Positions 18,824 to 33,735 of a stretch of DNA of 64,000 nt are shown in pieces (within the stretch, counting starts at the first letter, position 1; each line of letters opens with the position of its first letter). A model generated the notes under the pieces. The model ran no database searches. It worked only from the letters and a program-made list of their open reading frames with translations, and had not been told where the DNA came from. The position numbers and the translations under genes were made by a program. This stretch comes from Streptomyces halobius. GTDB taxonomy: Bacteria > Actinomycetota > Actinomycetes > Streptomycetales > Streptomycetaceae. The stretch spans positions 5,084,001 through 5,148,000 of the forward strand of contig NZ_CP086322.1 in assembly GCF_023277745.1 (NCBI RefSeq), read 5' to 3'.

Positions 18824-18825
18824 GC

Positions 18826-19458
18826 TTACTCTTCCTCGCTCGCCAGGGCGTTGATCGCGGCCGCGGTCATGGCGCTGCCGCCACGCCGCCCGCGCACCAC
18901 GATGTGGTCCAGCTTCGACGGGTGGGCGATGAGCGCGTCCTTGGACTCGGCCGCACCGATGAAGCCGACGGGGATCCCGATGACGGCGGCGGGGCGCGGC
19001 GCGCCCTCCTCGATCATCTCCAGAAGGCGGAAGAGGGAGGTGGGTGCGTTGCCGATCGCGATCACCGCGCCCGCCATGCGGTCGCGCCACAGCTCCATGG
19101 CGGCGGCGCTGCGGGTGGTGCCCATACGGGCGGCCAGGTCCGGGACGGACGGGTCGGCCAGGGTGCACAGGACGTCGTTGCCGGCCGGCAGCCGCTTGCG
19201 GGTCACGCCGCTGGCGACCATGGTGGCGTCGCACAGGATCGGGGCGCCGGAGCGGAGCGCCGCGCGGGCGTTCGCCACCACCTCGGGGGTGTAAGCGAGA
19301 TCGCGTACGAGGTCGACCATGCCGCAGGCGTGGATCATCCGGACCGCGACCTTGCTGACGTCGGCGGGCAGGCCCGTGAGGTCCGCCTCGGCGCGGATGG
19401 TGGCAAAGGACTGGCGGTAGATCGCCGCCCCGTCCTTCTCGTAGTCGAACACTGTCAC
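18826..19458 (-). CDS. cobH: Precorrin-8X methylmutase
   Basis: The GTG at 19458 overlaps the cobG stop as GTGA. The 210-residue protein has the catalytic His in [12 protein letters not shown] (about residues 40-51) and [10 protein letters not shown], both typical of CobH/CbiC. Late in the chain come [14 protein letters not shown] and [16 protein letters not shown]. It moves the C11 methyl to C12, turning precorrin-8X into hydrogenobyrinic acid. It is the middle gene of the cobG-cobH-cobIJ operon. Confidence 0.95.
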
Positions 19459-21032
19459 TGTGCCTTCGGGGTGGTGGGTCGGGAGGTGGGTACGGGGTTG
19501 GTGGCGGTAGCCGCAGTTGTTGCTGCGGCTGTGGTTGGTGGCGCGGTTGGCGCGTCTGCGTTCGCTGCCCTTGTCGCCGCCGCGATGGCCGTGGCGACAA
19601 GGGGGAGGGGGACGTCCTCCGGTGGCAGGTGATCCGGCCGCACGTCAGGTCGTACCTCCTGCCCCACCGCGGACACCCGATAGCCCTCGCCCGTCGCCAG
19701 GACGTCGATCCACCTGCCCTGCGGATGACCGCACCGGCGTTCGCAGCCGGACCAGTGGACGGGGAGCCGGCGGGCGCCCTCCACCGGCATGCCGCTGCCC
19801 TCCACCGGCATGCCGGCATCCTCCGTCGGCGTGTGGGTGCCCTCCGCGGACGCGCGGGCGCCCTCCGCCGACTCGGCGGCCGTGGCCCGACCGAGGGCGG
19901 CCGCCGCGTCCGCGCGTACGTCGGAGCGGGACTTGACGCACCCGGGGCGGCCGGTGCAGGCGCCGATCCGGTGCCAGGGGGAGTCGGGGTCGATGATCAG
20001 CCCGGCGGCGGCCAGTTCGTGCAGCCGGGGTCCGGCAGTGGCGGCCGTCAGCCCGGGGACGAGCACACCGCGCCAAGGGGTGACCCGCAAGTCGCCGCAG
20101 CCGTCGGCGGCCGCTACGGCGGTCAGCAGGCGCCACTGCGCGACGGTCAGCCGGCCGAGCGGTGCGAGGACGCAGAGCGCACGGCGGCCACCGGGGCCTT
20201 CGACGACGCCGGGAAGGGGGCCTCCGGGGGCAGCGGCAGGCACCGGCTCGGCCCCCGCCGCAGCGACGTACTCCACGCCAACTCCCGCCTTCCGCAGCCC
20301 ATCCGCCACATCACGTGCGTTCAGGGCATATCCGGCAGGGAGTTCGCGTACACGCCACGCGCCCGTGCCGCTCGCCTCGGCGGCGGTGAGGAAGGATTCG
20401 GCGGCGATGAGCGCCGTGCGCGGTACGTCCGGGCCGGCGATCCGTACCGCCGCCGGATCGTCGCCGATACGCAGCAGCGCCCCGCCGCCTCCGGAGCCGT
20501 CCGCTTCTGCGACCAAGGTCACATCCCCGCCGAGCGCCGCCACATCGCCCCGTCCGTCGTCCAGGACGAACAAAAAACGGCCGGAAAGGGCAGTCGCGGA
20601 CGCGCTCGCGCACAGCAGCGCGTCCAGTCGTCGGGCCCACAACTGCACGTCAGAGGGGGTGTGCTGGTCAAGGCCGGCCAGCGGGGAGGCGAGGATGTTG
20701 CGGATGCGTTCATGGCGCGCGGAGGGCAGCAGGCCGGCCTCGCGCAGTACGGCCGCCAGCTCCTGGCCGCAGGCGTCCGGGAGGCCGCGGAGTTCCGTGT
20801 TGCCGCGTGAGGTGAGGGAGAGGTGGCCGTCGCCGAGACGCTCCGCGGCGTCGGCCAGCGCCGCTGCTTGACGTGACGTCAAACAACCGGCAGGTAGCCG
20901 CACTCGCGCGAGATGACCGTCGGCGGCGGAGTGCAGCCGCAGCGCTCCCGGGCAGGCGTCACCGCGATCCCGTACGGGCGGTTCGGCCCCATGGGGGCGC
21001 GGCAAGGGGGAGGGCGGCATGGCGGCGAGCAT
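19455..21032 (-). CDS. cobG: Precorrin-3B synthase (oxygen-dependent)
   Basis: The start is placed at the ATG at 21032. A second in-frame ATG at 21020 is equally possible, because neither has a clear ribosome site. CobG belongs to the nitrite/sulfite reductase fold: [15 protein letters not shown] near residue 65 and a C-terminal cluster region with [19 protein letters not shown] and [14 protein letters not shown], which supply the four cysteines for [4Fe-4S]. It uses O2 to make precorrin-3B, so it marks the aerobic route. About 30 residues between the cysteine pairs are 24-bp-derived repeats ([12 protein letters not shown]). The C-terminus is a Thr/Ala/Pro-rich tail. Confidence 0.9.
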
Positions 21033-21120
21033 ACCGACGTCGGGGAACGCCGGATCCGCGCTCCGACGGACGGAGAGCTGAACGGAGATCCGGCGGAGAT
21101 ATGGAGGAGATTCGGGCGGA

Positions 21121-21196
21121 GATACGGCCTTTCCGCCCGGAAGAGACGGAGATACGGACGTTCCATCCAGAAGATACGGACTTTCCGTCCAGAAGA
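21121..21196. repeat. Three copies of a 24-bp element upstream of cobG
   Basis: Copies begin at 21121, 21151 and 21173 and share GATACGG, TTCC, CC and GAAGA. They lie in the leader or promoter of the cobGHIJ operon, opposite the cobN riboswitch. Each contains a small CGGNNTTTCCG dyad. They may be regulator sites or another minisatellite. Confidence 0.65.
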
Positions 21197-21359
21197 GGTG
21201 TCCGTCCCACCCGAGACGGGGCGCCCTACCCACCCAAAGCGCCGGGCGAAGAGCCGCGCACCCCCAACCGGGCAGCCGCACACCCCCTACGCCAGGCGCC
21301 CCCGCCCACCCGTTCCCACGACCCCAGGGCCCCCTCCCCCGCCCCGCCCCCAGCCCTTA

Positions 21360-21510
21360 CTATGCAGGTCGGTGGGTCAGCTGGCCCGCCGACGCCAGCG
21401 ACGGCGCCGGGCCCTACGGCCCAAGGGAGGAAGCCCGGTGAGAATCCGGCGCGGTCCCGCCACTGTGAACCCGGCCACCACCGGGTGAGTCAGGAACTCC
21501 CGCCGTCCTC
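21360..21510 (+). promoter_or_regulatory. Cobalamin riboswitch before cobN
   Basis: The B12-box core GCCACTG is at 21459-21465, inside GCGGTCCCGCCACTGTGAA. It is preceded by the typical GGTGAGAATCC junction (about 21437-21447) and by a GGAGGAAGCC segment. The element starts near GGTCGGTGGGTCAGC at about 21367 and closes near GAGTCAGGAACTCC at about 21500. It should bind adenosylcobalamin and lower cobN expression when the vitamin is plentiful. The end points are approximate. Confidence 0.9.
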
Positions 21511-21555
21511 ACGACCACCCGGGGCGCGGACACCCCGAGGAAGGCCTGCGCTCGC

Positions 21556-24500
21556 ATGCTCCTGCTGCTGTCGACCTCCGACACCGACCTGCTCAGCGCC
21601 CGCGCTGCCACCGGTCCCGTGCCGTACCGGCTCGCCAACCCCGCCCGCCTCGAACTCGACGAGCTGCCCGCGCTGCTGGACGGCGTCGATCTTGTCGTCG
21701 TACGACTCCTCGGCGGTATCCGCGCCTGGCAGGAGGGCCTCGATCTGCTGCTGGCCGAGGACCAGCACCGGCCGGTCGTCGTCCTCACGGGTGAACAGGC
21801 CCCCGACGCCCAGCTCATGGAGGCGTCCACGGTCCCGGTCGGTATCGCGGCCGAGGCGCACGCCTACCTGGCGCACGGCGGCCCCGCCAACCTCGACCAG
21901 CTCGCCCGCTTCCTCTCCGACACGGTGCTGCTGACCGGCCACGGCTTCGAGCCGCCGGCCCCCGCCCCCACCTGGGGACGCCTGGATCACACCCCGCTGC
22001 CCGGCGTCGCCGCGGACGCCCCGCTCGTCGCCGTGCTCTACTACCGCGCCCACCACATGAGCGGCAACACCGGCTTCGTACGGTCCCTGTGCGAGCAGAT
22101 CGAGCGCGCCGGCGGCCGGGTCCTGCCGCTGTTCGTCGCCTCGCTGCGCGCCCCCGAGCCCGAGCTGATCGAGGAACTCCGCGCCGCCGACGCCATCGTC
22201 ACCACCGTCCTCGCCGCCGGCGGCACCAAGCCGGCCGAGGCATCGGCCGGCGGCGACGACGAATCGTGGGACGCGGGCGCGCTTGCCGCCCTGGATGTGC
22301 CGATCCTCCAAGCGCTCTGCCTGACCGGAACGCGCGCCGCCTGGGAGGAGAACGACGAGGGCCTGTCCCCGCTGGACGCCGCGAGCCAGATCGCGGTACC
22401 GGAGTTCGACGGGCGCCTGATCACCGTCCCGTTCTCCTTCAAGGAGGTCGACGAGGACGGTCTGCCGGTGTATGTCGCCGACCCCGAGCGCGCCGCCCGG
22501 GTCGCCGGGATCGCCGTACGCCACGCCCGCCTGCGCCATATCCCGGCCGCCGACAAGCGCCTGGCGCTGGTCCTCTCCGCGTATCCCACCAAGCACTCCC
22601 GTATCGGCAACGCGGTCGGCCTGGACACCCCCGCCAGCGCCGTCGCCCTCCTCCGCCGCCTCCGCTCCGAGGGCTACGACTTCGGCACCGAAGAGGTGCC
22701 CGGCCTCGCGTCCGGCGACGGCGACGAGCTGATCTACGCCCTTATCGAGGCCGGCGGCCACGACCAGGAGTGGCTCACCGAAGAGCAGCTGGCCCGCAAC
22801 CCGGTCCGTATTCCCGCCGCCGACTACAAGCGCTGGTACGCCACGCTGCCGCAGGAACTGCGCGACGCCGTCGAGGAGCACTGGGGCCCGCCGCCCGGCG
22901 AGATGTTCGTCGACCGCAGCCGGAACCCCGAGGGGGACATCGTCCTGGCGGCCCTCCGCCGCGGCAACCTCCTCATCCTCATCCAGCCGCCGCGCGGCTT
23001 CGGCGAGAACCCGATCGCGATCTACCACGACCCCGATCTGCCGCCGTCGCACCACTACTTGGCGGCCTATCGCTGGATCGCCGCCGCGCAGCGGGACGGA
23101 GGCTTCGGGGCGGACGCCATGGTCCACCTCGGCAAGCACGGCAACCTGGAGTGGCTGCCCGGAAAGAACGCGGGCCTGTCCGCCGCCTGCGGCCCCGACG
23201 CCGCGCTCGGCGACCTCCCCCTCGTCTACCCGTTCCTGGTCAACGACCCGGGCGAGGGTACCCAGGCCAAGCGCCGGGTGCACGCCACCCTCGTCGACCA
23301 TCTCGTCCCGCCCATGGCGCGCGCGGAGTCGTACGGCGACATCGCCCGCCTGGAACAGCTCCTGGACGAGTACGCCGCGATCTCCGCCATGGACCCGGCC
23401 AAACTGCCCGCCATCCGCGCGCAGATCTGGACCCTCATCCAGGCCGCCAAGCTCGACCACGACCTGGGCTTGGACGAACGCCCCGACGACGACGGCTTCG
23501 ACGACTTCCTGCTCCACGTCGACGGCTGGCTGTGCGAAGTCAAGGACGCCCAGATCCGCGACGGCCTGCACGTCCTCGGCAGCGCGCCGACCGGAGAGGC
23601 GCGGGTCAACCTCGTCCTCGCCATCCTGCGCGCCCGCCAGATCTGGGGCGGCACCTCCTCCCTCCCCGGGCTGCGCGAGGCCCTCGGCCTGGACGAGTCC
23701 GGGGCGACGCGCACCACGGCCGACGAGGCGGAGGCCACGGCCCGCGCGCTGGTCCAGGCGATGGAGGACGCCGGCTGGGACCCGACTGCGGTGGCTTCCG
23801 TGACCGCCGGCCACGGCCAACAGGTCGCCGACATCCTCGACTTCGCCGCCCGCCAGGTGGTCCCCCGCCTCTCCTCGACCACCGACGAACTCGACCACGC
23901 CGTGCACGCGCTCAACGGCGGCTTCGTCCCGGCGGGCCCGTCCGGCTCCCCGCTCCGCGGCCTGGTCAACGTCCTGCCGACGGGCCGTAACTTCTACTCC
24001 GTCGACCCCAAGGCGGTCCCGTCCCGCCTCGCCTGGGAAACCGGGCAGTCCCTGGCCGACTCCCTCCTGGAGCGCTACCGCACGGACAACGGCGACTGGC
24101 CGGAGTCCGTCGGCCTCTCCCTCTGGGGCACCAGCGCCATGCGGACCTCCGGCGACGATGTCGCCGAGGCCCTCGCCCTGCTGGGCGTCCGCCCCGTCTG
24201 GGACGACGCCTCCCGCCGCGTGACCGGCCTGGAGCCCATCCCCCTCCCCGAGCTGAACCGCCCCCGTATCGACGTCACCCTCCGCGTCTCCGGCTTCTTC
24301 CGCGACGCGTTCCCGCACGTCATCGGCCTTCTCGACGACGCCGTACGGCTCGCCGCGTCCCTCGACGAGCCCGCCGCCGACAACCACGTCCGCGCCCACA
24401 CCCAGGCCGACCTCGCTTCCCACGGCGACGAACGCCGGGCCACCACCCGCATCTTCGGCTCCCGCCCGGGGACCTACGGCGCGGGCCTGCTCCAGCTCAT

Positions 24501-25167
24501 CGACAGCCGCGACTGGCGCACGGACGCGGACCTCGCCGAGGTCTACTCGGTGTGGGGCGGCTATGCCTACGGCCGCGGCCTGGAAGGTCGTCCGGCACGC
24601 GACGAAATGGAGACCGCCTACAAGCGGATCGCCGTCGCCGCCAAGAACACCGACACCCGCGAACACGACATCGCTGACTCCGACGACTACTTCCAGTACC
24701 ACGGCGGCATGGTCGCCACGGTCCGGGCGCTGCGCGGCCACGCCCCCGAGGCGTACATCGGCGACTCGACCCGGCCCGAAACCGTCCGCACCCGCACCCT
24801 GGTGGAGGAAACCTCCCGCGTCTTCCGCGCGCGCGTCGTCAACCCCCGCTGGATCGAGGCCATGCGGCGCCACGGCTACAAGGGCGCCTTCGAACTCGCC
24901 GCGACCGTCGACTACCTCTTCGGCTACGACGCGACCACGGGAGTCGTGGCCGACTGGATGTACGACAAACTCGCCCAGACCTACGTACTGGACCCGGAAA
25001 ACCGCGCCTTCCTTCAGGACGCCAACCCCTGGGCCCTGCACGGCATCGCCGAACGCCTCCTGGAGGCCGAATCCCGCGGCATGTGGGAAAAGCCGGACGC
25101 CGAGACACTGGCGGCGCTGCGTGAGGCGTTCCTGGAGACGGAGGGGGACTTGGAGGGGGAGGACTGA
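21556..25167 (+). CDS. cobN: Cobaltochelatase large subunit CobN
   Basis: The ATG at 21556 follows GAGGAAGG. The 1203-residue length fits CobN. Family motifs are present, such as YYRAHHMSGNTGFV near 160 and VHLGKHGNLEWLPGKN near 525. The metal-chelation part also shows RIDVTLRVSGFFRDAFP and the YFQYHGGMVATVRAL region near the end. With the CobS/CobT or ChlI/D-type AAA subunits it inserts Co2+ into hydrogenobyrinic acid a,c-diamide. Those small subunits, often adjacent, are not in this window. A cobalamin riboswitch controls it. Confidence 0.95.
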   Translation: MLLLLSTSDTDLLSARAATGPVPYRLANPARLELDELPALLDGVDLVVVRLLGGIRAWQEGLDLLLAEDQHRPVVVLTGEQAPDAQLMEASTVPVGIAAEAHAYLAHGGPANLDQLARFLSDTVLLTGHGFEPPAPAPTWGRLDHTPLPGVAADAPLVAVLYYRAHHMSGNTGFVRSLCEQIERAGGRVLPLFVASLRAPEPELIEELRAADAIVTTVLAAGGTKPAEASAGGDDESWDAGALAALDVPILQALCLTGTRAAWEENDEGLSPLDAASQIAVPEFDGRLITVPFSFKEVDEDGLPVYVADPERAARVAGIAVRHARLRHIPAADKRLALVLSAYPTKHSRIGNAVGLDTPASAVALLRRLRSEGYDFGTEEVPGLASGDGDELIYALIEAGGHDQEWLTEEQLARNPVRIPAADYKRWYATLPQELRDAVEEHWGPPPGEMFVDRSRNPEGDIVLAALRRGNLLILIQPPRGFGENPIAIYHDPDLPPSHHYLAAYRWIAAAQRDGGFGADAMVHLGKHGNLEWLPGKNAGLSAACGPDAALGDLPLVYPFLVNDPGEGTQAKRRVHATLVDHLVPPMARAESYGDIARLEQLLDEYAAISAMDPAKLPAIRAQIWTLIQAAKLDHDLGLDERPDDDGFDDFLLHVDGWLCEVKDAQIRDGLHVLGSAPTGEARVNLVLAILRARQIWGGTSSLPGLREALGLDESGATRTTADEAEATARALVQAMEDAGWDPTAVASVTAGHGQQVADILDFAARQVVPRLSSTTDELDHAVHALNGGFVPAGPSGSPLRGLVNVLPTGRNFYSVDPKAVPSRLAWETGQSLADSLLERYRTDNGDWPESVGLSLWGTSAMRTSGDDVAEALALLGVRPVWDDASRRVTGLEPIPLPELNRPRIDVTLRVSGFFRDAFPHVIGLLDDAVRLAASLDEPAADNHVRAHTQADLASHGDERRATTRIFGSRPGTYGAGLLQLIDSRDWRTDADLAEVYSVWGGYAYGRGLEGRPARDEMETAYKRIAVAAKNTDTREHDIADSDDYFQYHGGMVATVRALRGHAPEAYIGDSTRPETVRTRTLVEETSRVFRARVVNPRWIEAMRRHGYKGAFELAATVDYLFGYDATTGVVADWMYDKLAQTYVLDPENRAFLQDANPWALHGIAERLLEAESRGMWEKPDAETLAALREAFLETEGDLEGED

Positions 25168-25178
25168 GGACGGCTGGG

Positions 25179-25211
25179 GCTCCGGGGGGCGGGAGTTTCG
25201 CCCCCCGGAGC
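25179..25211. terminator. Strong 13-bp stem-loop between cobN and the methyltransferase gene
   Basis: GCTCCGGGGGGCG and CGCCCCCCGGAGC pair perfectly around GGAGTTT. It lies 12 bp after the cobN stop and 45 bp from the convergent methyltransferase stop, so it can serve both strands. Confidence 0.85.
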
Positions 25212-25255
25212 GCCGGAAGTCCTAGGGGGCGGCCGTGCTGAGTCAGCGGAGGCCG

Positions 25256-26380
25256 CTACTCGACCGGGTACATGACCCCGGTGGGCCTCCGCACCCAAAC
25301 GCGCTCGCTGGTCTTGGTGACCGTCAGCCCCATATCAGCATCGGTGGGACGATCCAGCTCGTCCCACTCGCGCCAGACCGCCTCCACGTCACCCCACAAG
25401 CTGCACTCCCCGAACTCGGTGACGGTGCCGTCGGCATCCGCGATGGCACCCGAGCCTCGACTGTCGTGCACCCACACGCGGGGGTCTGTGCCCTGGCTCC
25501 CTTCAGTACGCCCTTCAATGAGCGTGACGTCGGGAAGGCGGGCGCCCGCGTACAGCGCGAATCCGAGCGTGAGCGTCTCCTGAGGAAGGACCTCGGTGGA
25601 CCGCGAGCGGGGCGAGGAGGTGTCCGGGGTGACGCCGGTGGTGCCCCGGTGGGAGCGCATCGGCATGTAGGCGGCACTCCCCGCGAACGAGCCCGACGCG
25701 GTGCCGTCCTCGTCGGCGGTGGCCTCGTCGGCAGTGAGGCGGACCAGGGCGCCGCACCAGAAGTCGCCCATTCTGGGCGCCACCAGCACCCCACCCGGCC
25801 GTAGTTGCTGGACCAAGGCGTACGGAACATGTCGCAGAGCGCAGGTCGCGATGATCCGGTCGTACGGCGCGCCGGCCGGACAGCCGTGCTCCCCGTCGGC
25901 GACGACCAGCCGCGGCCGGTATCCGGCGGCCGACAGATAACGCTCCGCGTGCGCCGCCAGTGACGCGTCGATCTCGACGCTCGTGACGCGGTCGTCGCCG
26001 AGCCGGGCCGACAGCAACCCGGCGACGTGGCCGGTGGCGGTGCCGATCTCCAGGACCTGCTGCCCGTCGCGCACATCGAGCAGGCCCAGCATTCTCGCCA
26101 CCATCGACGGCATGCTGTTGGACGAGGTGGCGACCCCGGGGCCGTCCGCCGCTCCGTCGTCGACCTGCGTGACGACTGGTTTATCGGAGGACACCAGGGC
26201 ACCGCGCTCTTCGGCCGTCGTGACCGGACGGCATCGGTCGGGGTCTTGCCGCCAGACCTGCTCAGGCAGATACGCCTGACGCGGGGTGCGTTCCCATACG
26301 GCGCGCCACTCGGGGGTCAACAGGCCGCGCTCGTCCAGAGACCGGACGAGCGCGGCGTGCCCCTCTTGGGGGTCGGTCAT
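25256..26380 (-). CDS. Protein-L-isoaspartate O-methyltransferase-like enzyme with C-terminal extension
   Basis: The ATG at 26380 lies four bases past the stop of the small upstream ORF. The 374-residue protein has a PCMT-type SAM domain (about 75-225) with VLEIGTATGHVAGLLSARLG and later IIATCALRHVP. Ordinary repair enzymes end near 220 residues. The extra 150 residues resemble methyltransferases that sit beside modified-peptide precursors (graspetide and FxLD-type systems). A DPRVWVHDSRGSGA segment and a WV-rich end close the chain. No ATP-grasp or lanthipeptide synthetase gene is nearby. It may modify the peptide encoded just upstream or act on other proteins. The fold is sure, the target is not. 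Confidence 0.8.
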   Translation of the reverse strand: MTDPQEGHAALVRSLDERGLLTPEWRAVWERTPRQAYLPEQVWRQDPDRCRPVTTAEERGALVSSDKPVVTQVDDGAADGPGVATSSNSMPSMVARMLGLLDVRDGQQVLEIGTATGHVAGLLSARLGDDRVTSVEIDASLAAHAERYLSAAGYRPRLVVADGEHGCPAGAPYDRIIATCALRHVPYALVQQLRPGGVLVAPRMGDFWCGALVRLTADEATADEDGTASGSFAGSAAYMPMRSHRGTTGVTPDTSSPRSRSTEVLPQETLTLGFALYAGARLPDVTLIEGRTEGSQGTDPRVWVHDSRGSGAIADADGTVTEFGECSLWGDVEAVWREWDELDRPTDADMGLTVTKTSERVWVRRPTGVMYPVE

Positions 26381-26384
26381 CGGC

Positions 26385-26501
26385 TCATGCCACCTTGGGC
26401 CGGTCGCCGTCGGGTGACGGCGGGGTGGGCGGAGGCGTCCACGGCTTGTCCTCCGGCGGACCGCCGTGCCTGCCGCTGTCCGACATCTGTGTGAAGTGCA
26501 C
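26385..26501 (-). CDS. Candidate 38-residue precursor-like peptide
   Basis: A near-perfect AAGGAGGAG site lies six to seven bases before the GTG at 26501. The peptide reads MHFTQMSDSGRHGGPPEDKP and then a Trp-Thr-Pro-rich tail rich in PPP and Asp, ending PKVA. It stops four bases before the methyltransferase start. The frame is also open upstream to the TTG at 26786, so it could instead be the C-terminus of a 133-residue protein. The ribosome site and the drop in G+C at third positions just upstream favour a separate start. Its role as a methyltransferase substrate is inference. Confidence 0.5.
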   Translation of the reverse strand: MHFTQMSDSGRHGGPPEDKPWTPPPTPPSPDGDRPKVA

Positions 26502-26786
26502 GATCTCCTCCTTCTGGTTGGGGTTGCTCACTTCTGGTTGGGGTTTGATTGCTGCCCGGACGCGCAGAGCGCTGGCGGTCGGGGGACGGCGGTGGGGCCG
26601 CAGCCCCATGTGCGTCGTCACGGTGTCGAGCATCTCCCGCAAGGGGAGGCTGTTCTCCGCCTGGAGGACTTCGTGCAGTTGGACTGCCAGCAGAGCGCAT
26701 TCGGGGCAGTGACCAGGGTCGGTGGAACCAGGCGCAACGTAGACGTCGGCTGCGGCCTCGCTGTTTTTCCGCGTGTTGGTCGTCAA
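26385..26786 (-). CDS. Small protein with CxxC motif, read through into the peptide ORF
   Basis: A TTG at 26786 overlaps the stop of the previous gene (TTGA), giving 133 residues if read to the stop at 26385. The first part (about 1-75) looks genuinely coding, with GHCPECALLAVQLHEVLQ and LREMLDTVTTHMGL. The segment before the peptide start has poor codon bias and a direct repeat (CTTCTGGTTGGGGTT on the plus strand, 15 bp, at about 26511 and 26530). There is no stop between the two parts. Either this is one protein or a stop was lost between two genes. The function is unknown. Confidence 0.5.
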   Translation of the reverse strand: MTTNTRKNSEAAADVYVAPGSTDPGHCPECALLAVQLHEVLQAENSLPLREMLDTVTTHMGLRPHRRPPTASALRVRAAIKPQPEVSNPNQKEEIVHFTQMSDSGRHGGPPEDKPWTPPPTPPSPDGDRPKVA

Positions 26787-26974
26787 CGGCGCACCGTCTT
26801 CGGGTGGGGGTGGCTGCGGATCTCGATGTTGTAGTCGGTCGCTTTCGACTTGTCCCCGACGGCGTGCGCCTTGGCGCGCTGTTCGGCCAGGGCCATGCAC
26901 ACATCGCACCCGGCGACCGGCACCGGCTCCGACGCCGGTTCCTTGAGGTGAACGGGGTGGCAGATGCGGGCCAT
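26783..26974 (-). CDS. Small hypothetical protein with CDVC motif, 63 residues
   Basis: The ATG at 26974 overlaps the previous stop as TGATG. The protein starts MARICHPVHLKEPASEPVP, then has GCDVCMALAEQRAKAHAVG and a basic end. The two cysteines and flanking histidines might bind a metal. It belongs to the same tightly overlapped minus-strand operon as the methyltransferase. I do not recognise the family. Confidence 0.6.
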   Translation of the reverse strand: MARICHPVHLKEPASEPVPVAGCDVCMALAEQRAKAHAVGDKSKATDYNIEIRSHPHPKTVRR

Positions 26975-27291
26975 CAGCTCACCACCTGCACGCTGTGAAT
27001 CCAGCGCGGGCCTGCGTCGATTCCGTGGACGGCCAGCCACAACACCCGGCGCCGCTTGCGTCGCAGCCGCCGTTCCTGAAGCTCCTCTCTGGTGAGCACG
27101 TACGGCCGGACGAGGGGCGAGTCCTCGCCACGTAGTAGTACAGGCTGCCGGACAGGTACGTGGCTCGGGTGCGGTGGCGGTACGTCTTCGTGGCGCGGGG
27201 CACGCAGTGAGCCCACCACCCGGTGGCGCCCGCGCGCGGGCAGTAACAGCCGTAGCAGTAGCTCGATGAGCCTTCGGCTAGGCTCGCTCAT
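26974..27291 (-). CDS. Small basic hypothetical protein, first gene of the methyltransferase operon
   Basis: The ATG at 27291 gives 105 residues beginning MSEPSRRLIELLLRLLLPAR. This is an amphipathic Leu/Arg helix, followed by Arg-rich and Pro-rich segments and LTREELQERRLRRKRRR. It could bind nucleic acid or membranes. It leads the operon 27291 to 25256. The region before it (27292-27603) should hold the promoter, and it contains the palindrome at 27569-27590. Confidence 0.6.
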   Translation of the reverse strand: MSEPSRRLIELLLRLLLPARGRHRVVGSLRAPRHEDVPPPHPSHVPVRQPVLLRGEDSPLVRPYVLTREELQERRLRRKRRRVLWLAVHGIDAGPRWIHSVQVVS

Positions 27292-27382
27292 GTCGTCAAC
27301 CTCCAGGGGGTTGGTGGCCACGCCCCCGGACCGGTCGCGCGGTTGCGGGGGTCATGTGTGTGGCGCGTGTTTTCGTTTGGAA

Positions 27383-27520
27383 GTGAGTCATGCTCACGCA
27401 CGCATCGAGAAGGCGCAGTTGTCAGTGCAGGCCAAGGTTTTCCTGTGGTCCTGGCGCCTGACGGTCATTGCAACTGTGGTCGCAGCGACCGCCATCGGCT
27501 CGATGACATGGGGGAGTTGA
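27383..27520 (+). CDS. Small single-pass membrane protein, 45 residues
   Basis: The GTG at 27383 has TTTGGAAG just before it. The protein is hydrophilic for 20 residues and then has one membrane segment (LTVIATVVAATAIGSM). It lies on the opposite strand between the methyltransferase operon and the GntR gene, in a stretch of lower G+C. Such tiny membrane proteins accompany GntR regulators in some integrated plasmids. Here the role is unknown. Confidence 0.4.
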   Translation: MSHAHARIEKAQLSVQAKVFLWSWRLTVIATVVAATAIGSMTWGS

Positions 27521-27568
27521 GGGCATCGGTAGTCGTGTGCGCACTCTGCGTATGTGCGTGACTCCACA

Positions 27569-27590
27569 CTGGACCGGTGGACCGGTCCAG
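27569..27590. promoter_or_regulatory. Palindromic operator, site 1 (GntR candidate)
   Basis: The arms CTGGACCGGT and ACCGGTCCAG match perfectly around GG. The core GACCGGT-N2-ACCGGTC is shared with the palindrome on the other side of the GntR gene, as expected if the repressor binds both. It may control the small-gene/methyltransferase operon. Confidence 0.7.
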
Positions 27591-27603
27591 TCAAGATGTG
27601 CCG

Positions 27604-28344
27604 TCAGCTTTCCTCGCCCATCGGGTAGGTGTCGGTGCGTTTCCAAAGGGCGGAGGGTGTGACGCCCTCCTCGCAGACCAAGGCGCTGCCGTGCTGGTCG
27701 TGAGCGGTATGGAGGTCCACGGCGACCGCGGCGGGACGTTTCACCCCCAGGAGTTCCGCTTCGTGCTTCGTTGCGAGGCGGACGGTGGTGATGTCCGTAC
27801 CCTGCACCGGTCCGCGGCCGGTCTCACGGCGCACATAGTGTGTGGTGCCTTCGGCGATGGGCCCCGACTGTGCGAGGCGGGGGCAGACTTCGGCGATGTC
27901 CGGAGGGAACCATGCGACCACGTACGACATGGGCGTGCCGTCATCGTTGAGCACGAGCCGGGCGCGGTGCAGGGCCTTTTGCCGTGGGGAGAGTGTGAGT
28001 GCGTCGGCGATGTGAGCCGGAGGTGTCAGCATCTCCGGATTTCCCAGTCGGCGGAAAGGGCGCCCTCCAGTAGTGCGGCTGGTGCCGGCACGCCGGGAGC
28101 CTGCTGGTCGGGCGAGCGGAGTTTCGGTGACCGTGAATCCACGCCCTTGGTGAGGGATGACAAGGCCGTCGCCCCGCAGTATCTCCATGGCCTTGATCGC
28201 TGTGGCACGGGAGACGCGCCACTGTTCGCACAGGTCACGGCTCGATGGGAGGAACTGACCGGGGGCAAACTCGCCGTCGGCGATCCGCGCGCGAAGGGAC
28301 TCAGCGATCTGTTCGTACTTGAGTTGCGGCATGCGGGGCTGCAC
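27604..28344 (-). CDS. GntR-family transcriptional regulator, HutC/UTRA type
   Basis: The 246-residue frame starts at the GTG at 28344. An ATG four codons later (28332) is an alternative. The winged-helix domain covers about 5-75 (KYEQIAESLRARIADGEFAPG, CEQWRVSRATAIKAMEIL). The UTRA ligand domain covers about 100-235 with PMSYVVAWFPPDIAEVCPRL. Such repressors release DNA on binding a small molecule. Matching palindromes lie upstream of the gene and past its stop. It diverges from a methyltransferase gene that is probably also under its control. Confidence 0.92.
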   Translation of the reverse strand: MQPRMPQLKYEQIAESLRARIADGEFAPGQFLPSSRDLCEQWRVSRATAIKAMEILRGDGLVIPHQGRGFTVTETPLARPAGSRRAGTSRTTGGRPFRRLGNPEMLTPPAHIADALTLSPRQKALHRARLVLNDDGTPMSYVVAWFPPDIAEVCPRLAQSGPIAEGTTHYVRRETGRGPVQGTDITTVRLATKHEAELLGVKRPAAVAVDLHTAHDQHGSALVCEEGVTPSALWKRTDTYPMGEES

Positions 28345-28357
28345 TTCCGTAGGAGGG

Positions 28358-28377
28358 CTGACCGGTCAACCGGTCAG
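28358..28377. promoter_or_regulatory. Palindromic operator, site 2 (GntR candidate)
   Basis: The arms CTGACCGGT and ACCGGTCAG lie around CA, between the divergent GntR and methyltransferase genes. The core is the same as at 27569-27590. A weaker GGACCAGTGG half-site follows at about 28400. Confidence 0.75.
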
Positions 28378-28422
28378 GTTAGGGTCTGGCGTCGGCTGTG
28401 GACCAGTGGCCAGACTGCGTCC

Positions 28423-29250
28423 ATGACCACACAACGAGACCGCCTCGCCGTCGCTCCCGAAATCCTGGAGTTCTATGGCGAGACCAGCAACGAAGCCGAG
28501 CGGCTGACTGGGTCCGCCGACGGTGTTCTGGAGATGGTCCGCACCCAGGAACTGCTTCGGCGCTTCCTGCCTGAGCCGCCCGCTCGTGTGCTGGATGTCG
28601 GGGGCGGCCCGGGGGCGCATGCCCGATGGCTTGTGAAGGACGGCTACACCGTGCATCTGGTCGACCCGGTGCCGAGGCATGTGGAGCAGGCCAAAGAGGC
28701 CGGGGCCACGGTGGAGCTGGGGGACGCGCGGGAGCTGACCGCCGATGACGATTCGTACGATGCCGTGCTGGTCCTCGGCCCGCTCTACCACCTGCTCGAC
28801 CGTCGCGAGAGACTGAAGGCCCTTCGAGAGGCGCGCCGGGCGGTACGGCCGGGTGGCCTGGTCGCCGCTGCGGCAATCGGCCGGTACGCCTCACTGTTCG
28901 AGCACACGGCTACCACATGGCTCGGCACAAAGGACCGGGTACGTGATGCGGTGGTGGACATCCTCGCGTCCGGTCGTCACGACCCGGGTCGCAAGGGCTT
29001 CACCGCCGCGTACTTCCACACGGCTGATCAACTCGCCGAGGAGATGACCGCCGCCGGACTGGCGGGGGTGACGGTGCATGGGATCGAAGGCCCCGCGTGG
29101 GGGGCGCTGAAAGCCACAGAGCAACACACCGGCCAACACCTCGCGGACTCTTCGTTGTTCGATGCTGCTCTTGAAGCGGCGAAGCTGGCGGAGCCGTACC
29201 CTGAGCTCCTCGCCGCTTCATCGCACATGCTCGCCGTGGCGCGGGCATAG
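28423..29250 (+). CDS. Class I SAM-dependent methyltransferase
   Basis: The protein has 275 residues from the ATG at 28423. The SAM loop is RVLDVGGGPGAHARWL near residues 56-71, followed by VHLVDPVPRHVEQAKE and VLVLGPLYHLLDRRERL. The C-terminal half (SSLFDAALEAAKLAEPYPEL) resembles the UbiE/SmtA-like methyltransferases of actinobacteria. The substrate is unknown. It is divergent from the GntR gene across the operator at 28358, so it may be induced by the GntR ligand. Confidence 0.88.
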   Translation: MTTQRDRLAVAPEILEFYGETSNEAERLTGSADGVLEMVRTQELLRRFLPEPPARVLDVGGGPGAHARWLVKDGYTVHLVDPVPRHVEQAKEAGATVELGDARELTADDDSYDAVLVLGPLYHLLDRRERLKALREARRAVRPGGLVAAAAIGRYASLFEHTATTWLGTKDRVRDAVVDILASGRHDPGRKGFTAAYFHTADQLAEEMTAAGLAGVTVHGIEGPAWGALKATEQHTGQHLADSSLFDAALEAAKLAEPYPELLAASSHMLAVARA

Positions 29251-29375
29251 AACCATCCCCCTCTTAGCGGCAGCGGGCCACGGCGGACGCGGTCGGGCCG
29301 ACGAGCGGTCTCTGTTCCCGGACTCGTTCACCATGCGCTTGCGGGACAGACTTGGCGCCACTGGAAGGAGTGCTG

Positions 29376-29693
29376 ATGAGCGAAGGTTTCGCGCTGTTCG
29401 TTCGCTTTACGTTGCGCGACCAGGACGCGGCAACTGCCTTTGATGATCTGTGTGCTCGCACCTTGGAGGGGATCAAGACGCAGGAGCCCGGCACGCTCGC
29501 GTACGTCACCCACATCCCCGTGGATGAGCCCCTGATCCGCGTTTTCTACGAGCTGTACGCCGATCGCGCCGCGTTCGAGGCACATGAGGCGCAGCCGCAC
29601 ACCAAGCGGTTCCTGGCCGAACGCGAGCAATACCTGTCCGGTGTCGAAGTGACGTTCCTGGACACCATCGCGGGGAAGGTGGCGACGGTCTAG
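29376..29693 (+). CDS. ABM-domain protein (antibiotic biosynthesis monooxygenase/quinol monooxygenase-like)
   Basis: The 105-residue protein has a GGAAGGAG site before the ATG at 29376. The ferredoxin-like ABM fold shows FALFVRFTLRDQDA, PGTLAYVTHIPVDEPLIRVF and the classic AHEAQPHTKRF. These cofactor-free enzymes oxidise quinols or act in stress response. Its TAG shares the CTAG tetramer with the stop of the convergent LCP gene, so the two genes overlap by four bases. Confidence 0.88.
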   Translation: MSEGFALFVRFTLRDQDAATAFDDLCARTLEGIKTQEPGTLAYVTHIPVDEPLIRVFYELYADRAAFEAHEAQPHTKRFLAEREQYLSGVEVTFLDTIAGKVATV

Positions 29694-31312
29694 CCCCCCA
29701 CTGCCGCGAAGTCCGGCCCCACCGTCAGCGTGACCTCCCCCGCCGTCGCCTCCGCCGACCGCTTCAGCTCAGTGTCGGGGAAGCGGGAGGCCAGCACCTG
29801 GGCCTGGGGCTTGAGCGGGGCGGGGTAGCCGATGGTGGTCTTGTCGGTGGCCGGGGCGTTGCCGGTGGCCGTGACGGTGAAGCCGAGTCCGCGCAGGCGG
29901 GCGGCGGCGGTGGCGGCCTGGCCCGCGACGCCGGTGCCGTTGAGGACGCGGACCCGGACGGAGCGCGCGGTCACCGGGTGCTTGGCGGCCTCGGCGAGCT
30001 TCTTCTTCCCCGCGGGGCCGATCTCGCGGTCGTGCGCGACGTCGCTGAACAGATCGCCGGCCTGCGGGTATTGCCAGATGACATTGGCCTTGTCGGTCGG
30101 GACGTCGGCCTCGCGGTAGTAGTTGGGCACGGTCAGGAAGGTGAGGCGGTCGCTGGGGATGTCCTTGACCGTAGCGGCGAGGTCGTAGAGCGGCTTGAGT
30201 CCCGCCAGATCCTTGTCGGTGGTGATCGACTTCGTTGCCGAGTCGAGGAAGCCGTAGAGATCGCCGGGGCTGGTGAGTTTGGCCTGGGCCTTGGTGAGCA
30301 GCGCCTTCATGAACTCCTGCTGGCGACCGATGCGGCCGAGGTCGGATCCGTCGCCGACGCTGTAGCGGGTACGGACATAGCCGAGGGCCTTCTCGTCCCG
30401 GACGGTCTGGCAGCCCGCGTCCAGGTCCAGATGGGCCTTCTTGTCGTGGATGGCGTGCTTGGGGCAGACCTCGATGCCGTCCAGTGCGTTGACCATGCCC
30501 TTGAAGCCCTGGAAGTCGATCGAGGCGAAGTTGTCGATGCGCAGGCCGGTGTTCTTCTCGACGGTCTTGATGGTGCAGGCGGCGGCCTTGCCGATGTCGC
30601 CGCTTTCGCCGCCGATCGAGAACGCCTCGTTGATCTTGAAGTGGTGCGGGGTGGACCGCGAGCCGTCGCCGCGCTCGCAGGCGGGTATCCGCACCCAGGA
30701 GTCGCGCGGGAAGGACAGCGCGGTGGCCCACTTACGGTTGGCGGCGATGTGCAGCAGCATCAGGGTGTCCGACTGCATGGTGGTCAGGCCCTTGCCGTAC
30801 TTGGCGTTGGCGCCCGCGCGGCTGTCCGAGCCGACGACCAGGATGTTCTTGGAGCCGGGGCTGAGGTTGACGGGCCGGTCGCCGTCGAGCCCGATGTCCG
30901 CGCCCTGGATGTTGCCGTCCAGTGTGAAGTAGACCCAGGCGCCGACGCCGGCCGTGCCGAGCAGCAGGACGCCGAGGAGGCCGCCGGTCCAGGCGACGAT
31001 CCGGCCGCGGCGGGTGATCCGCAGCTTGCCGTTGCCGGAGCCGGTACGGGGGCCGGTGCCGTTGCCGGATGCCCGGCCCGCCCTCCGGGAGCCGCCGGCG
31101 GCCCTATGGGACGGGGCATCGGCCCTATGGGACGGGGCGTCGGCCCTGCGGGAGTTGGGGCCCGCGCTTCTGCGGCGGGGCGCGCCGGACGTATCCGCCC
31201 CGTCGCCCGGGGGCCCGGTGCCCCGCCGGGGCGTCGCCTGCCTCTGCGGCTGCCCCTGCGATTGCCTTCGCGGCTGCCTGCGCGACTGCCTCTGTATTTG
31301 CCTGTCATGCAC
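29690..31312 (-). CDS. LCP-family cell-wall glycopolymer ligase with LytR_C domain
   Basis: The 540-residue protein has a very basic Arg/Gln-rich cytoplasmic head with repeats (RADAPSHRADAPSHRA, residues about 55-70). One membrane helix follows (about 107-128). The outside LCP domain (about 155-330) has VVGSDSRAG and SFPRDSWVRIP, which hold the Asp/Arg residues that bind polyprenyl-phosphate, and later YVRTRYSVGDGSDLGRIGRQ. A LytR_C domain (about 440-530, RVRVLNGTGVAGQA) closes the protein. It attaches teichoic-acid-like or capsule polymers to peptidoglycan. Confidence 0.93.
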   Translation of the reverse strand: MHDRQIQRQSRRQPRRQSQGQPQRQATPRRGTGPPGDGADTSGAPRRRSAGPNSRRADAPSHRADAPSHRAAGGSRRAGRASGNGTGPRTGSGNGKLRITRRGRIVAWTGGLLGVLLLGTAGVGAWVYFTLDGNIQGADIGLDGDRPVNLSPGSKNILVVGSDSRAGANAKYGKGLTTMQSDTLMLLHIAANRKWATALSFPRDSWVRIPACERGDGSRSTPHHFKINEAFSIGGESGDIGKAAACTIKTVEKNTGLRIDNFASIDFQGFKGMVNALDGIEVCPKHAIHDKKAHLDLDAGCQTVRDEKALGYVRTRYSVGDGSDLGRIGRQQEFMKALLTKAQAKLTSPGDLYGFLDSATKSITTDKDLAGLKPLYDLAATVKDIPSDRLTFLTVPNYYREADVPTDKANVIWQYPQAGDLFSDVAHDREIGPAGKKKLAEAAKHPVTARSVRVRVLNGTGVAGQAATAAARLRGLGFTVTATGNAPATDKTTIGYPAPLKPQAQVLASRFPDTELKRSAEATAGEVTLTVGPDFAAVGG

Positions 31313-31423
31313 GCCGGTGGCCCTTCTGGTCCTTCACATGCTTCGTGGGGGAGGGAGCGGCATCGGCGGCCGGAGGCGGCAGCAGGGGCGAGCTCGGAGA
31401 GCTCGGCGGGAGGGGGCCGGGGG

Positions 31424-31672
31424 TCAGATGCCGGTGCTGGGGAGGAGTCGTACGGACTCGGAGTCGTAACGGAGCCATCGCGGACGGGGGCCGCCGGAGA
31501 GGGTGCGCAGCCGGCACCACTCGTCGCCGGTGTCGTCCGTCCACCAGGCGCTGATCCGTCCCAACTCCCATGTGCCGTCGGGGTATTGGACCTCCACGGG
31601 CTGGTATACCCATCGCACCTCCGCCTCTGGAGGCGGACAATCCCAGGTCAGGAGTCCGCGTTCCGTCGCCAT
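31424..31672 (-). CDS. Small hypothetical protein under a BlaI-type operator
   Basis: The ATG at 31672 has GAAGGGGGAG just before it. An upstream ATG (31699) has no ribosome site. The 82-residue protein is rich in Trp (RWVYQPVEVQYPDGTWELGR, SAWWTDDTGDEW), a compact beta-type pattern. I recognise it only as a conserved small Streptomyces protein. A perfect TCTACA-N4-TGTAGA palindrome lies 55 bp upstream, so it is probably a member of the BlaI regulon. Confidence 0.65.
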   Translation of the reverse strand: MATERGLLTWDCPPPEAEVRWVYQPVEVQYPDGTWELGRISAWWTDDTGDEWCRLRTLSGGPRPRWLRYDSESVRLLPSTGI

Positions 31673-31727
31673 CTCCCCCTTCGGCCGCGCCTGTTGCATG
31701 TGTCCGACGCAAATTCTACCGATCGTA

Positions 31728-31743
31728 TCTACAGTGTTGTAGA
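31728..31743. promoter_or_regulatory. BlaI-type operator A
   Basis: TCTACA, GTGT, TGTAGA, then AGTT. It is identical in plan to two further sites at 32640 and 33321, and matches the TACA-N4-TGTA core of BlaI/MecI boxes. It is upstream of the small gene at 31424-31672. Confidence 0.8.
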
Positions 31744-31981
31744 AGTTGTCCGATTGTGCAGTGGATCACAGTCGAGGAGGCGGATCGCTGCTCAGGGCAG
31801 TGGATCACAGCCTAGGCTGCGGAGCGTCAGGTGTTCAGGCACAGTCGGTGGGCCAGTTGTGGATCAGCCCGAACGTGGACCGGCCTGAGCGTGGACCAGC
31901 CCGATAGCGGAAGCCCGAACGTGGATCAGTCTGCCGTCGCGACGGCGTCGCCGCCTTGAGAACGACGAACAGTGCGGGCGG
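31744..31981. other. Short AT-richer intergenic stretch with repeated GTGGATCA
   Basis: GTGGATCA or CGTGGA(C/T)CA recurs six or more times between 31771 and 31930. No gene is seen. It may be a decayed repeat at the end of the BlaI gene. Confidence 0.45.
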
Positions 31982-32488
31982 TCAGCTGCCGCCCCGGCCG
32001 GGGCTCTGGCCGGGCTCCTGGTCGGTGTCCTCGGCGGTGGCGCGGTCCAGGAGGGTGCGCAGCAACTGCTCGTCGTGCGCCGAGAGCGCGGAGACGAAGC
32101 TGGTGAGGACGGCGTCCCGGTCCGGTTCGCCGTCCAGGACACGGCGCATCCGCAGCGCGGCGAGCCCGGCCTCGTCGGCGGCCGGGGTCCATACGTACGC
32201 GCGGCCGGCGCGCTCGCGGGTGACGGCCTGCTTCGCGTGCAGCCGGGACAGGATCGTCACCACGGTCGTGTACGCGAGATCGCCGCCGAGCCGTTCCTGG
32301 ACCCACGCGGCGGTGACCGGGCCGGGTGAACGGTGCAGCGCGGCCAGCACCTGGGCCTCCAGCTGGCCCTGCCCGCGCCGGCGGCCGCGGCCGTGTCCGG
32401 CGGCCTTGAACCGCCCGCCGAAGTCGGCACCGCCGAGCGAGTCCCCGACCGAATTGCCGGGGGCCTTCCCGAGGGGCCTGCCGCCCAT
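31982..32488 (-). CDS. BlaI/MecI/CopY-family transcriptional repressor
   Basis: The ATG at 32488 is preceded by CGGGAGGCGACAGC. This start is preferred over upstream starts that add Arg/Pro-rich sequence. The 168-residue protein has the family winged helix at about 40-110 (QLEAQVLAALHRSPGPVTAAWVQERL, LAYTTVVTILSRLHAKQAV). A dimerisation tail follows with FVSALSAHDEQLLRTLL. Streptomyces BlaI proteins usually pair with an M56 peptidase (BlaR-like) that senses the signal. None is adjacent. Three matching operators lie within 1.7 kb. Confidence 0.92.
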   Translation of the reverse strand: MGGRPLGKAPGNSVGDSLGGADFGGRFKAAGHGRGRRRGQGQLEAQVLAALHRSPGPVTAAWVQERLGGDLAYTTVVTILSRLHAKQAVTRERAGRAYVWTPAADEAGLAALRMRRVLDGEPDRDAVLTSFVSALSAHDEQLLRTLLDRATAEDTDQEPGQSPGRGGS

Positions 32489-32639
32489 GCTGTCGCCTCC
32501 CGTCGCGCCGGGTGCCCCGCTGGCCGGGACGTCGGGGCATTTTACTGAGCGCCCGGGTATGCGGAGGGGGTCCGTACGGCATGTTCCCGGCGCGGCCTCT
32601 CGCCTGGCACGCACTCGTCATCTCCCCGCGGCCACAACT

Positions 32640-32655
32640 TCTACGCTCCTGTAGA
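32640..32655. promoter_or_regulatory. BlaI-type operator B, before the repressor gene
   Basis: TCTACG, CTCC, TGTAGA: one mismatch from the other two copies. It is 152 bp upstream of the BlaI-type start, consistent with self-repression. Confidence 0.75.
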
Positions 32656-32707
32656 TTTCAGGTTCCTGCACGCGGACGCGATGCCCGGACGTGGGTGCGG
32701 CGCCTGG

Positions 32708-32767
32708 ACGTGGGGCCGGCTCCCCGGACGTAAAGAGACGTGGGGCCGGCTCCCCGGACGCGAAGAG
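32708..32767. repeat. Two 30-bp tandem copies
   Basis: ACGTGGGGCCGGCTCCCCGG with a short tail occurs twice in tandem (32708 and 32738) with two mismatches. Each contains a GGGGCCGGCTCCCC palindrome. Confidence 0.9.
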
Positions 32768-32791
32768 GGGGTGGCCACGGCCACCCCCTCT
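32764..32791 (-). terminator. Terminator after terB-like gene
   Basis: AGAGGGGGTGGCC and GGCCACCCCCTCT form a perfect 13-bp stem. It is 23 bp after the stop at 32815. No T-run follows. Confidence 0.8.
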
Positions 32792-32814
32792 CGTCCGTCC
32801 CTCGGAGGTCGAGC

Positions 32815-33270
32815 TCAGAGATCGAATTCGGCCGGCGCGATGCCCAGCGCGAAGCACACCTCACGCACCAGCGCCTGCTCCGTCTTGTCGAAGTCGCCGT
32901 CGGCGCCGCCGATCACGATGCCGATCTGGATCACGGCTCGCGCCTCGACCGGCTTCTTCTTCACCTTGCCGACCTCCTGCATGACGGCGACCTTGCCGAA
33001 GTCGAAGTCGGCGGTCAGCTTGTCGAGATAGCCGTCGAAGCGCAGCTGGAGATCGTCCGCGGGGAAGTTCTGCAGCACCTCGTTCGTGGCGATGAGCTGG
33101 GCCACCCGCCGGCGCTCCGACGCGTCGACGGTGCCGTCCGCGGCGGCCACCAGGGCGCACATCGCCATGCTCGCGTCCCGGAAGGCGCCGCTCTTGAGGT
33201 CGTTCTTCTTGGCGACGAGCTGGTTCTGCATCGTCTGGGCGGATTCCTTGATCCGGTCCCACAGGGCCAT
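32815..33270 (-). CDS. TerB-family tellurite-resistance-like protein
   Basis: The ATG at 33270 has AGGAGAACCCC before it. The 151-residue all-helical protein has two acidic Asp-rich loops that bind metal: AAADGTVDASERR near 43-55 and GGADGDFDKTEQ near 121-132, the hallmarks of TerB. In ter systems it works at the membrane with TerD-like proteins. Here it stands alone. A perfect BlaI-type operator lies 51 bp upstream. Confidence 0.9.
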   Translation of the reverse strand: MALWDRIKESAQTMQNQLVAKKNDLKSGAFRDASMAMCALVAAADGTVDASERRRVAQLIATNEVLQNFPADDLQLRFDGYLDKLTADFDFGKVAVMQEVGKVKKKPVEARAVIQIGIVIGGADGDFDKTEQALVREVCFALGIAPAEFDL

Positions 33271-33320
33271 GGGGTTCTCCTAGGTCATCGTCTGTGAACA
33301 CGGGTCATGCGCAAGCAAAA

Positions 33321-33336
33321 TCTACAGGCTTGTAGA
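33321..33336. promoter_or_regulatory. BlaI-type operator C
   Basis: TCTACA, GGCT, TGTAGA followed by AGTT. The palindrome is perfect, between terB (minus) and the small-protein/desaturase operon (plus), so it may act on both. A -10-like TAGGAT is at 33375-33380 on the plus side. Confidence 0.85.
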
Positions 33337-33498
33337 AGTTACCCGACGGGATGGTCCCCACCTGGGTAGATCGGTAGGATAATCGTCTCTTTTGTGGTGA
33401 TTTGGCGGTCCGGGTTCGCGTACGGTGGAAGCATCGAAGGGAATTCGTATTCCGGCGGCCGCGCCGGACTCGTCGCAAGGTGCCAGAGGTGAGCACCC

Positions 33499-33735
33499 AT
33501 GCAGACTTTTTTGACCGTGATCGTGCTGCTCGCGCTGGTCGCTCTGGGGATCCTCTTCCTCATGAGGGTCAACGCCCAGACGACCGGACGGCCCGTCCAC
33601 CACCACAGGCACCCGTCCCCACACCCGTCGTTCCGCCTGCGGCCACACAAACGGTCACGCGGCGACACCACCCACGCCGGGTCGCGTGAGGCCGGGCCAC
33701 CGCCCCCTACTCCTAAGGCAGGCGACGACTTGTGA
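33499..33735 (+). CDS. Small membrane-anchored protein, 78 residues
   Basis: The ATG at 33499 follows GAGGTG. One N-terminal membrane segment (TVIVLLALVALGILFLM) is followed by a His-rich stretch (PVHHHRHPSPHP) and a basic tail. Its stop overlaps the GTG of the desaturase gene (GTGA), so the two are co-translated. It may assist the desaturase at the membrane or bind iron. The function is unproven. Confidence 0.65.
   Translation: MQTFLTVIVLLALVALGILFLMRVNAQTTGRPVHHHRHPSPHPSFRLRPHKRSRGDTTHAGSREAGPPPPTPKAGDDL

Follow-up and report, generated by a model that had tools for sequence, protein, structure and literature searches.

Stand-alone PIMT homologues encoded beside Gly/Pro/Asp-rich precursor peptides were described in 2023 as the imiditides, or type I pamtides, and such pairs are frequent in Streptomyces according to PMC10787088 and PMC13001092. 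The catalogued type I pamtides number 1414. In the same two papers, the PAMTs SpaM and NmaM methylate a specific Asp (+14 Da), followed by formation of an aspartimide (−18 Da) and then of isoAsp or Asp. Substrate recognition in these published imiditides is thought to be charge-based, with the basic end of the precursor used in recognition; this is reported for NmaA and SpaA but is not stated as class-defining. A WXXXGXP motif near the enzyme C terminus is said to be common to imiditide enzymes (PMC13001092); the motif is common to several RiPP PIMT classes and is therefore not class-defining.

We analysed a 64,000-nt stretch (hereafter the window) of the 9.24-Mb chromosome of Streptomyces halobius, in which a minus-strand gene row ends in a gene for a 38-aa peptide and one for an extended PIMT-type methyltransferase, here termed PAMT (Table 1). 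As in the imiditide pairs NmaA/NmaM and SpaA/SpaM, a short Pro/Gly/Asp-rich precursor (about 45 aa in theirs) lies beside a stand-alone PIMT homologue with a C-terminal extension of over 100 aa, with no other primary RiPP enzyme. The system had been proposed as undescribed on first inspection of the DNA, which does not hold because this two-gene layout matches that of the imiditides/type I pamtides published in 2023. We consider it very likely that the pair is a two-gene RiPP cassette of the imiditide/type I pamtide kind, perhaps representing a distinct subfamily: the imiditides of PMC13001092 are strongly positive, but peptides of the window family are near neutral or acidic and their end is not Lys-rich, the window peptide carries a KPWTPP segment, the WXXXGXP motif of the enzyme is not exact, and the predicted Asp is followed by Gly, whereas NmaA is described as having His at this position.

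Group 13 graspetides (fuscimiditide, amycolimiditide, SsfABM) likewise have an extended PAMT of the TIGR04188 type, but the window has no ATP-grasp gene and its PAMT scores under the TIGR04188 cut-off. Cysimiditides, or type II pamtides (FcaA/FcaM), share the two-gene layout and, in FcaA, an Asp-Gly site; unlike them, the window peptide has no Cys. The repair PIMT (Pcm) and the T. maritima enzyme 1dl5 share the catalytic fold, with a C-terminal extension in 1dl5, but the window PAMT is genetically linked to a peptide and a separate repair-type gene is present in the genome (L001, a 231-aa frame).

Gene row and methyltransferase

The genes of the row overlap or abut through TGATG and TTGA junctions and a 4-nt gap between the peptide stop and the PAMT ATG, confirming the arrangement that the sequence-only reading had described. 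The GTG start of the peptide lies at 26501, three bases past AAGGAGGAG, and its TGA stop at 26387–26385. The row is flanked on one side by cobalamin genes (CbiC, CobN and others) and on the other by genes for the GntR regulator, a methyltransferase, an ABM protein, a LytR-CpsA-Psr protein and others. A Pfam scan of ten neighbours (16958–34718) turned up no RiPP enzyme, protease or transporter, and tblastn with the ATP-grasp protein of the graspetide locus in the same genome had no match in the window, which upholds the earlier statement that no ATP-grasp or lanthipeptide enzyme is present. A 15-bp direct repeat, AACCCCAACCAGAAG, occurs at 26531–26545 and 26511–26525, 20 bp apart, within the 133-aa frame, and its second copy extends into the ribosome site of the peptide.

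Table 1. Positions of the features discussed, in window coordinates or by phage locus
Feature	Position	Strand	Basis or remark
GntR/UTRA regulator, upstream of the gene row	27604–28344	minus	Pfam
105-aa ORF	26974–27291	minus	faint resemblance to DUF6284 (E 0.014, short of the cut-off); probable bystander
63-aa CDVC mini-protein	26783–26974	minus	TGATG overlap with 105-aa ORF; common Streptomyces family, probable bystander
133-aa ORF from TTG	26385–26786	minus	TTGA overlap with 63-aa ORF
95-codon in-frame stretch before the peptide, CPEC motif	26502–26786	minus	N-terminal part of 133-aa ORF; not peptide
Ribosome binding site of the peptide, AAGGAGGAG	26505–26513	minus	sequence
Precursor peptide gene, 38 aa, GTG start, MHFTQMSDSGRHGGPPEDKPWTPPPTPPSPDGDRPKVA	26385–26501	minus	upstream of PAMT relatives, 27/27 loci
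Asp31 codon (PDG step), predicted modified residue	26409–26411	minus	only Asp column filled 24/24
374-aa extended PIMT-type methyltransferase (PAMT), ATG at 26380	25256–26380	minus	PF01135, TIGR04188, model, Foldseek
PAMT C-terminal extension, about residues 245–374	25256–25648	minus	resembles T. maritima PIMT extension
Phage-borne PAMT and precursor	L336, L337, L338, L340, L341		phages Austintatious, Alderaan, PapayaSalad, Ididsumtinwong, Bioscum

The two mini-proteins at the head of the row have no Pfam or NCBIfam family at cut-off. The 63-aa CxxC protein was found in 87 of 150 Streptomyces genomes (four copies in S. halobius itself) and the 105-aa protein in 48 of 150 (six copies), and a PAMT gene was near the 63-aa gene in 3 of 19 fetched loci. 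As common Streptomyces proteins with a PAMT near few of the 63-aa loci, they are disfavoured as partners of the system; the two genes probably form a recurrent block that is not part of the modification system. A similar 105/63-aa pair also precedes the graspetide locus of the same genome (L153, 6275000–6286000), where the mini-block is followed by a TgmA-like peptide, an ATP-grasp gene and a PAMT gene (names assigned by eye).

The description of PAMT as an extended PCMT-type enzyme was corroborated: PF01135 matches residues 86–202 only of its 374 (91 bits), and the predicted structure (pLDDT 83.9) shows a C-terminal domain of about 130 more residues. The best Foldseek match of this model was 1dl5, the Thermotoga maritima PIMT, matched over the length, and PAMT is thus predicted to have a PIMT fold with a 1dl5-like C-terminal domain; the VIA-align listing, which excludes nothing, contained no further PIMT with a full-length match. 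The named homologues among the best 120 listed were all from Streptomyces, and most of the loci outside Actinomycetota among the 80 listed in a broad enzyme scan match the catalytic domain only. At the position of the WXXXGXP motif the window enzyme has WDELDRP; of 118 relatives with 340 aa or more, only 6 have the exact motif, and 14 have it when D, E or N is accepted in place of G. A role in anti-phage defence was considered on account of a domain-level mad2 match in PADLOC (56.8 bits, residues 91–201), which was judged to reflect the shared methyltransferase fold and was rejected.

Conservation of the peptide and its linkage to the methyltransferase

At a threshold of E 1e-85 or better, 246 Streptomyces genomes yielded close enzyme relatives at 27 loci in 20 genomes, window included; the neighbour set examined here consists of the 26 non-window loci and L018 from Streptomyces fimicarius. 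Whether a short ORF sits upstream of homologous enzymes had been put forward as a check on the pair, and a peptide, in some cases damaged, was present directly upstream of PAMT in all 27 neighbour loci, typically with the pattern KHxG...KPWTPP...PDG...P; 26 of them keep the PDG Asp in frame. The alignment covers 24 of 28 peptides (L135, L140, L146 and L149 were left out, the L149 peptide being identical to that of L145) and contains 13 invariant columns: H12, G14, P16, K19, P20, W21, P23, P24, P28, P30, D31, G32 and P35. In 40 distinct cores, the codons of conserved Pro and Gly residues show third-base variation; all 40 have GAC as the Asp codon. The window peptide is rich in Pro (26.3%), Asp (10.5%) and Gly (10.5%) and has no Cys, and hence no CxxCxGxG zinc ribbon. 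Over the 24 peptides the charge ranges from −4 to +3 (His not counted), and the basic end described for imiditides was not found, the tail after the DG carrying −2 to +2 (+1 in the window peptide).

Several copies are damaged. In L146 (G095) the frame is broken inside the core with PAMT intact, and a second intact pair (L148) is present in the same genome; the L135 peptide lacks an ATG, GTG or TTG start; and L140 lacks KHxG, has no start codon within 20 codons and has an in-frame stop in PAMT.

The linkage was also approached from the peptide side. Searching 392 Streptomyces genomes with a profile built from the 24 peptides alone yielded 57 matches (the window among them) spread over 46 genomes, and PAMT lies directly downstream at 56 of the 57 (30 loci, 15 of 16 fetched loci and 11 from the neighbour set). 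Twenty-seven of the matches correspond to loci of the enzyme search; the other 30 were new and outside the building of the profile, and PAMT is downstream in 29 of these 30 loci that the enzyme search had missed. The exception, L246 (G166), carries a family peptide and, within the 6.5 kb fetched, nothing that matches PAMT. Among individual loci, the PAMT adjoining the L236 peptide is truncated (L187), the contig ends at L245, and L241 and L242 appear to be duplicates of a single locus, one near each end of the chromosome. With the starts chosen here, the distance from peptide stop to PAMT start falls mostly between −4 and +10 nt. In an order-wide draw of 197 genomes from six genera, 25 genomes matched the peptide profile, all in one genus. 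The 27 of 27 neighbour loci and the 56 of 57 profile matches show that the pairing is no accident, and the proposal that peptide and extended enzyme form a modification pair is well supported.

Candidate reaction and competing explanations

Asp-Gly steps are prone to aspartimide formation. D31 of the PDG step is the only Asp common to all 24 aligned peptides and, on the strength of this comparison, is the predicted site of methylation, aspartimide and isoAsp. In the reaction that we infer, the peptide would be translated and PAMT made from the next gene, perhaps via coupled translation given the 4 nt between stop and start. The enzyme would then recognize the linear peptide, probably with its C-terminal domain, and methylate the side chain of this Asp; the methyl ester would collapse to an aspartimide (−18 Da), either kept or hydrolysed mainly to isoAsp. 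Recognition is more likely to proceed via the invariant H-x-G and KPW-x-P segments than via charge because both peptide and tail are near neutral.

The Asp of the SDKPW/EDKPW segment, present in 20 of the 24 aligned peptides next to the invariant KPW, offers another modified residue, and we regard it as quite an unlikely one: the PIKPW forms (4 of 24 aligned peptides; 11 of 69 tree rows) lack it and still have PAMT, phage peptides without the KPW segment keep an SDG, and by established chemistry Asp-Gly is the better aspartimide site. The peptide might instead be a regulatory partner or decoy that docks the enzyme through KPWTPP, the real substrate being a cellular protein. The near-unit linkage, the absence of a protease or transporter nearby and the conservation of much of the peptide, with no clearly variable core, would fit such a role, which is nevertheless unlikely, as the PDG Asp is invariant, the middle and tail of the peptide differ between clades and in phages, and the relative SpaM modifies its encoded peptide SpaA in vitro (PMC10787088).

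Two further explanations were considered. The sequence-only reading had itself named the possibility that the peptide region is the conserved C terminus of the 133-aa CPEC protein: in the window, no stop interrupts the frame between 26786 and 26385, and many relatives likewise have open upstream frames. Because the window frame is open for 159 codons upstream of the peptide start, the 38-aa start was assigned by comparison and from the ribosome site. This explanation is nonetheless highly improbable, since the N-terminal part is not conserved: the 133-aa protein has matches in 9 of 149 other genomes, eight of which are confined to residues 74–133, the peptide end, and the ninth (residues 19–133) has a stop inside. 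Moreover, six loci (L129, L132, L136, L139, L142 and L147) have a stop 0–3 codons ahead of the peptide start, and the ribosome site matches at five or six bases in 25 of 28 loci, the start having been chosen for that match. The in-frame stretch ahead of the peptide is, by these alignments, neither conserved nor part of the peptide. The pair could also be the remnant of a graspetide cluster that lost its precursor and ATP-grasp genes, in keeping with TIGR04188 as the best NCBIfam model for PAMT and with the similar mini-block before the graspetide locus; this we find scarcely credible, as PAMT scores 279 bits against a cut-off of 380, with 430 bits for the graspetide enzyme of the same genome, and the peptide–PAMT pairs group in a supported clade of 37 rows, none with ATP-grasp neighbours.

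Copies on chromosomes, plasmids and phages

Four further PAMT–peptide pairs without ATP-grasp (L150, L151, L152 and L154) occur in the S. halobius genome, with different precursors as judged by eye, in addition to L153 and two weaker matches (L155 and L156). The positions of the four pairs in the chromosome include 0.92, 5.81, 6.23 and 6.78 Mb. The close relatives L124 and L129 have, by eye, gene neighbours unlike those of the window. In L149 (G055), apparent ATP-grasp and PAMT genes lie a few kb upstream of a PIKPW-type PAMT–peptide pair, and in Actinomadura syzygii (L021) a peptide with two type II pamtide-like Cys motifs lies upstream of PAMT. The near-neutral KPWTPP-type precursor family is possibly new, being unlike the basic imiditides described; the scatter of precursor variants over the enzyme tree may also be new. 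A literature search with KPWTPP as the term found no mention.

Relatives of PAMT were found in 62 plasmid records at 1e-20, and the one plasmid record examined, from Streptomyces anulatus (L339), carries a KPW peptide with the PAMT relative. Among 50,697 phage records, PAMT was found in eight, representing five different Streptomyces venezuelae phages (Austintatiousvirus); the Austintatious enzyme has 36 percent identity over 391 columns. In all five phages, a 47–48-aa peptide, MSGKHGG...SSDGSGP(S/A)K(K), is encoded behind a ribosome site and 8 nt before the GTG of PAMT. This peptide keeps GKHGG and SDGSGP, the first and last motifs of the family, and lacks the Trp-Pro middle. The pair sits between a helix-turn-helix gene and the endolysin gene and is annotated as a methyltransferase and a hypothetical protein, a longer peptide frame from an upstream start being annotated in the Austintatious and Alderaan records. 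Three database proteins match the phage peptide, of which two are named, both from Streptomyces. The word 'phage' is absent from the main texts of PMC10787088 and PMC13001092, and no literature treating both Austintatious and a methyltransferase was found. The phage-borne pair is possibly new, and both the KPWTPP peptide family and its phage version look little explored.

Of the leads opened here, the pair carried by phages is of greatest interest. A strongly conserved family with one invariant Asp-Gly and a motif independent of charge would be a good substrate for structural work on enzyme and peptide, and the natural copies in cultivable S. venezuelae phages and in plasmids would allow tests of function by gene removal. 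A possible, if on balance unlikely, reading is that peptide and PAMT make up a self-contained mobile cassette that moves between chromosomal sites, plasmids and phages and uses a recognition code of its own (KHxG and KPW-x-P, not charge), and that the phage form, next to the genes for repressor and lysis, acts as a lysogenic-conversion RiPP. The available portions of PMC10787088 and PMC13001092 name no biological role for imiditides/pamtides; if this reading is true, a role of the phage RiPP, such as one in competition between phages or in control of the host, would provide the orphan class with a first biological function that can be tested.
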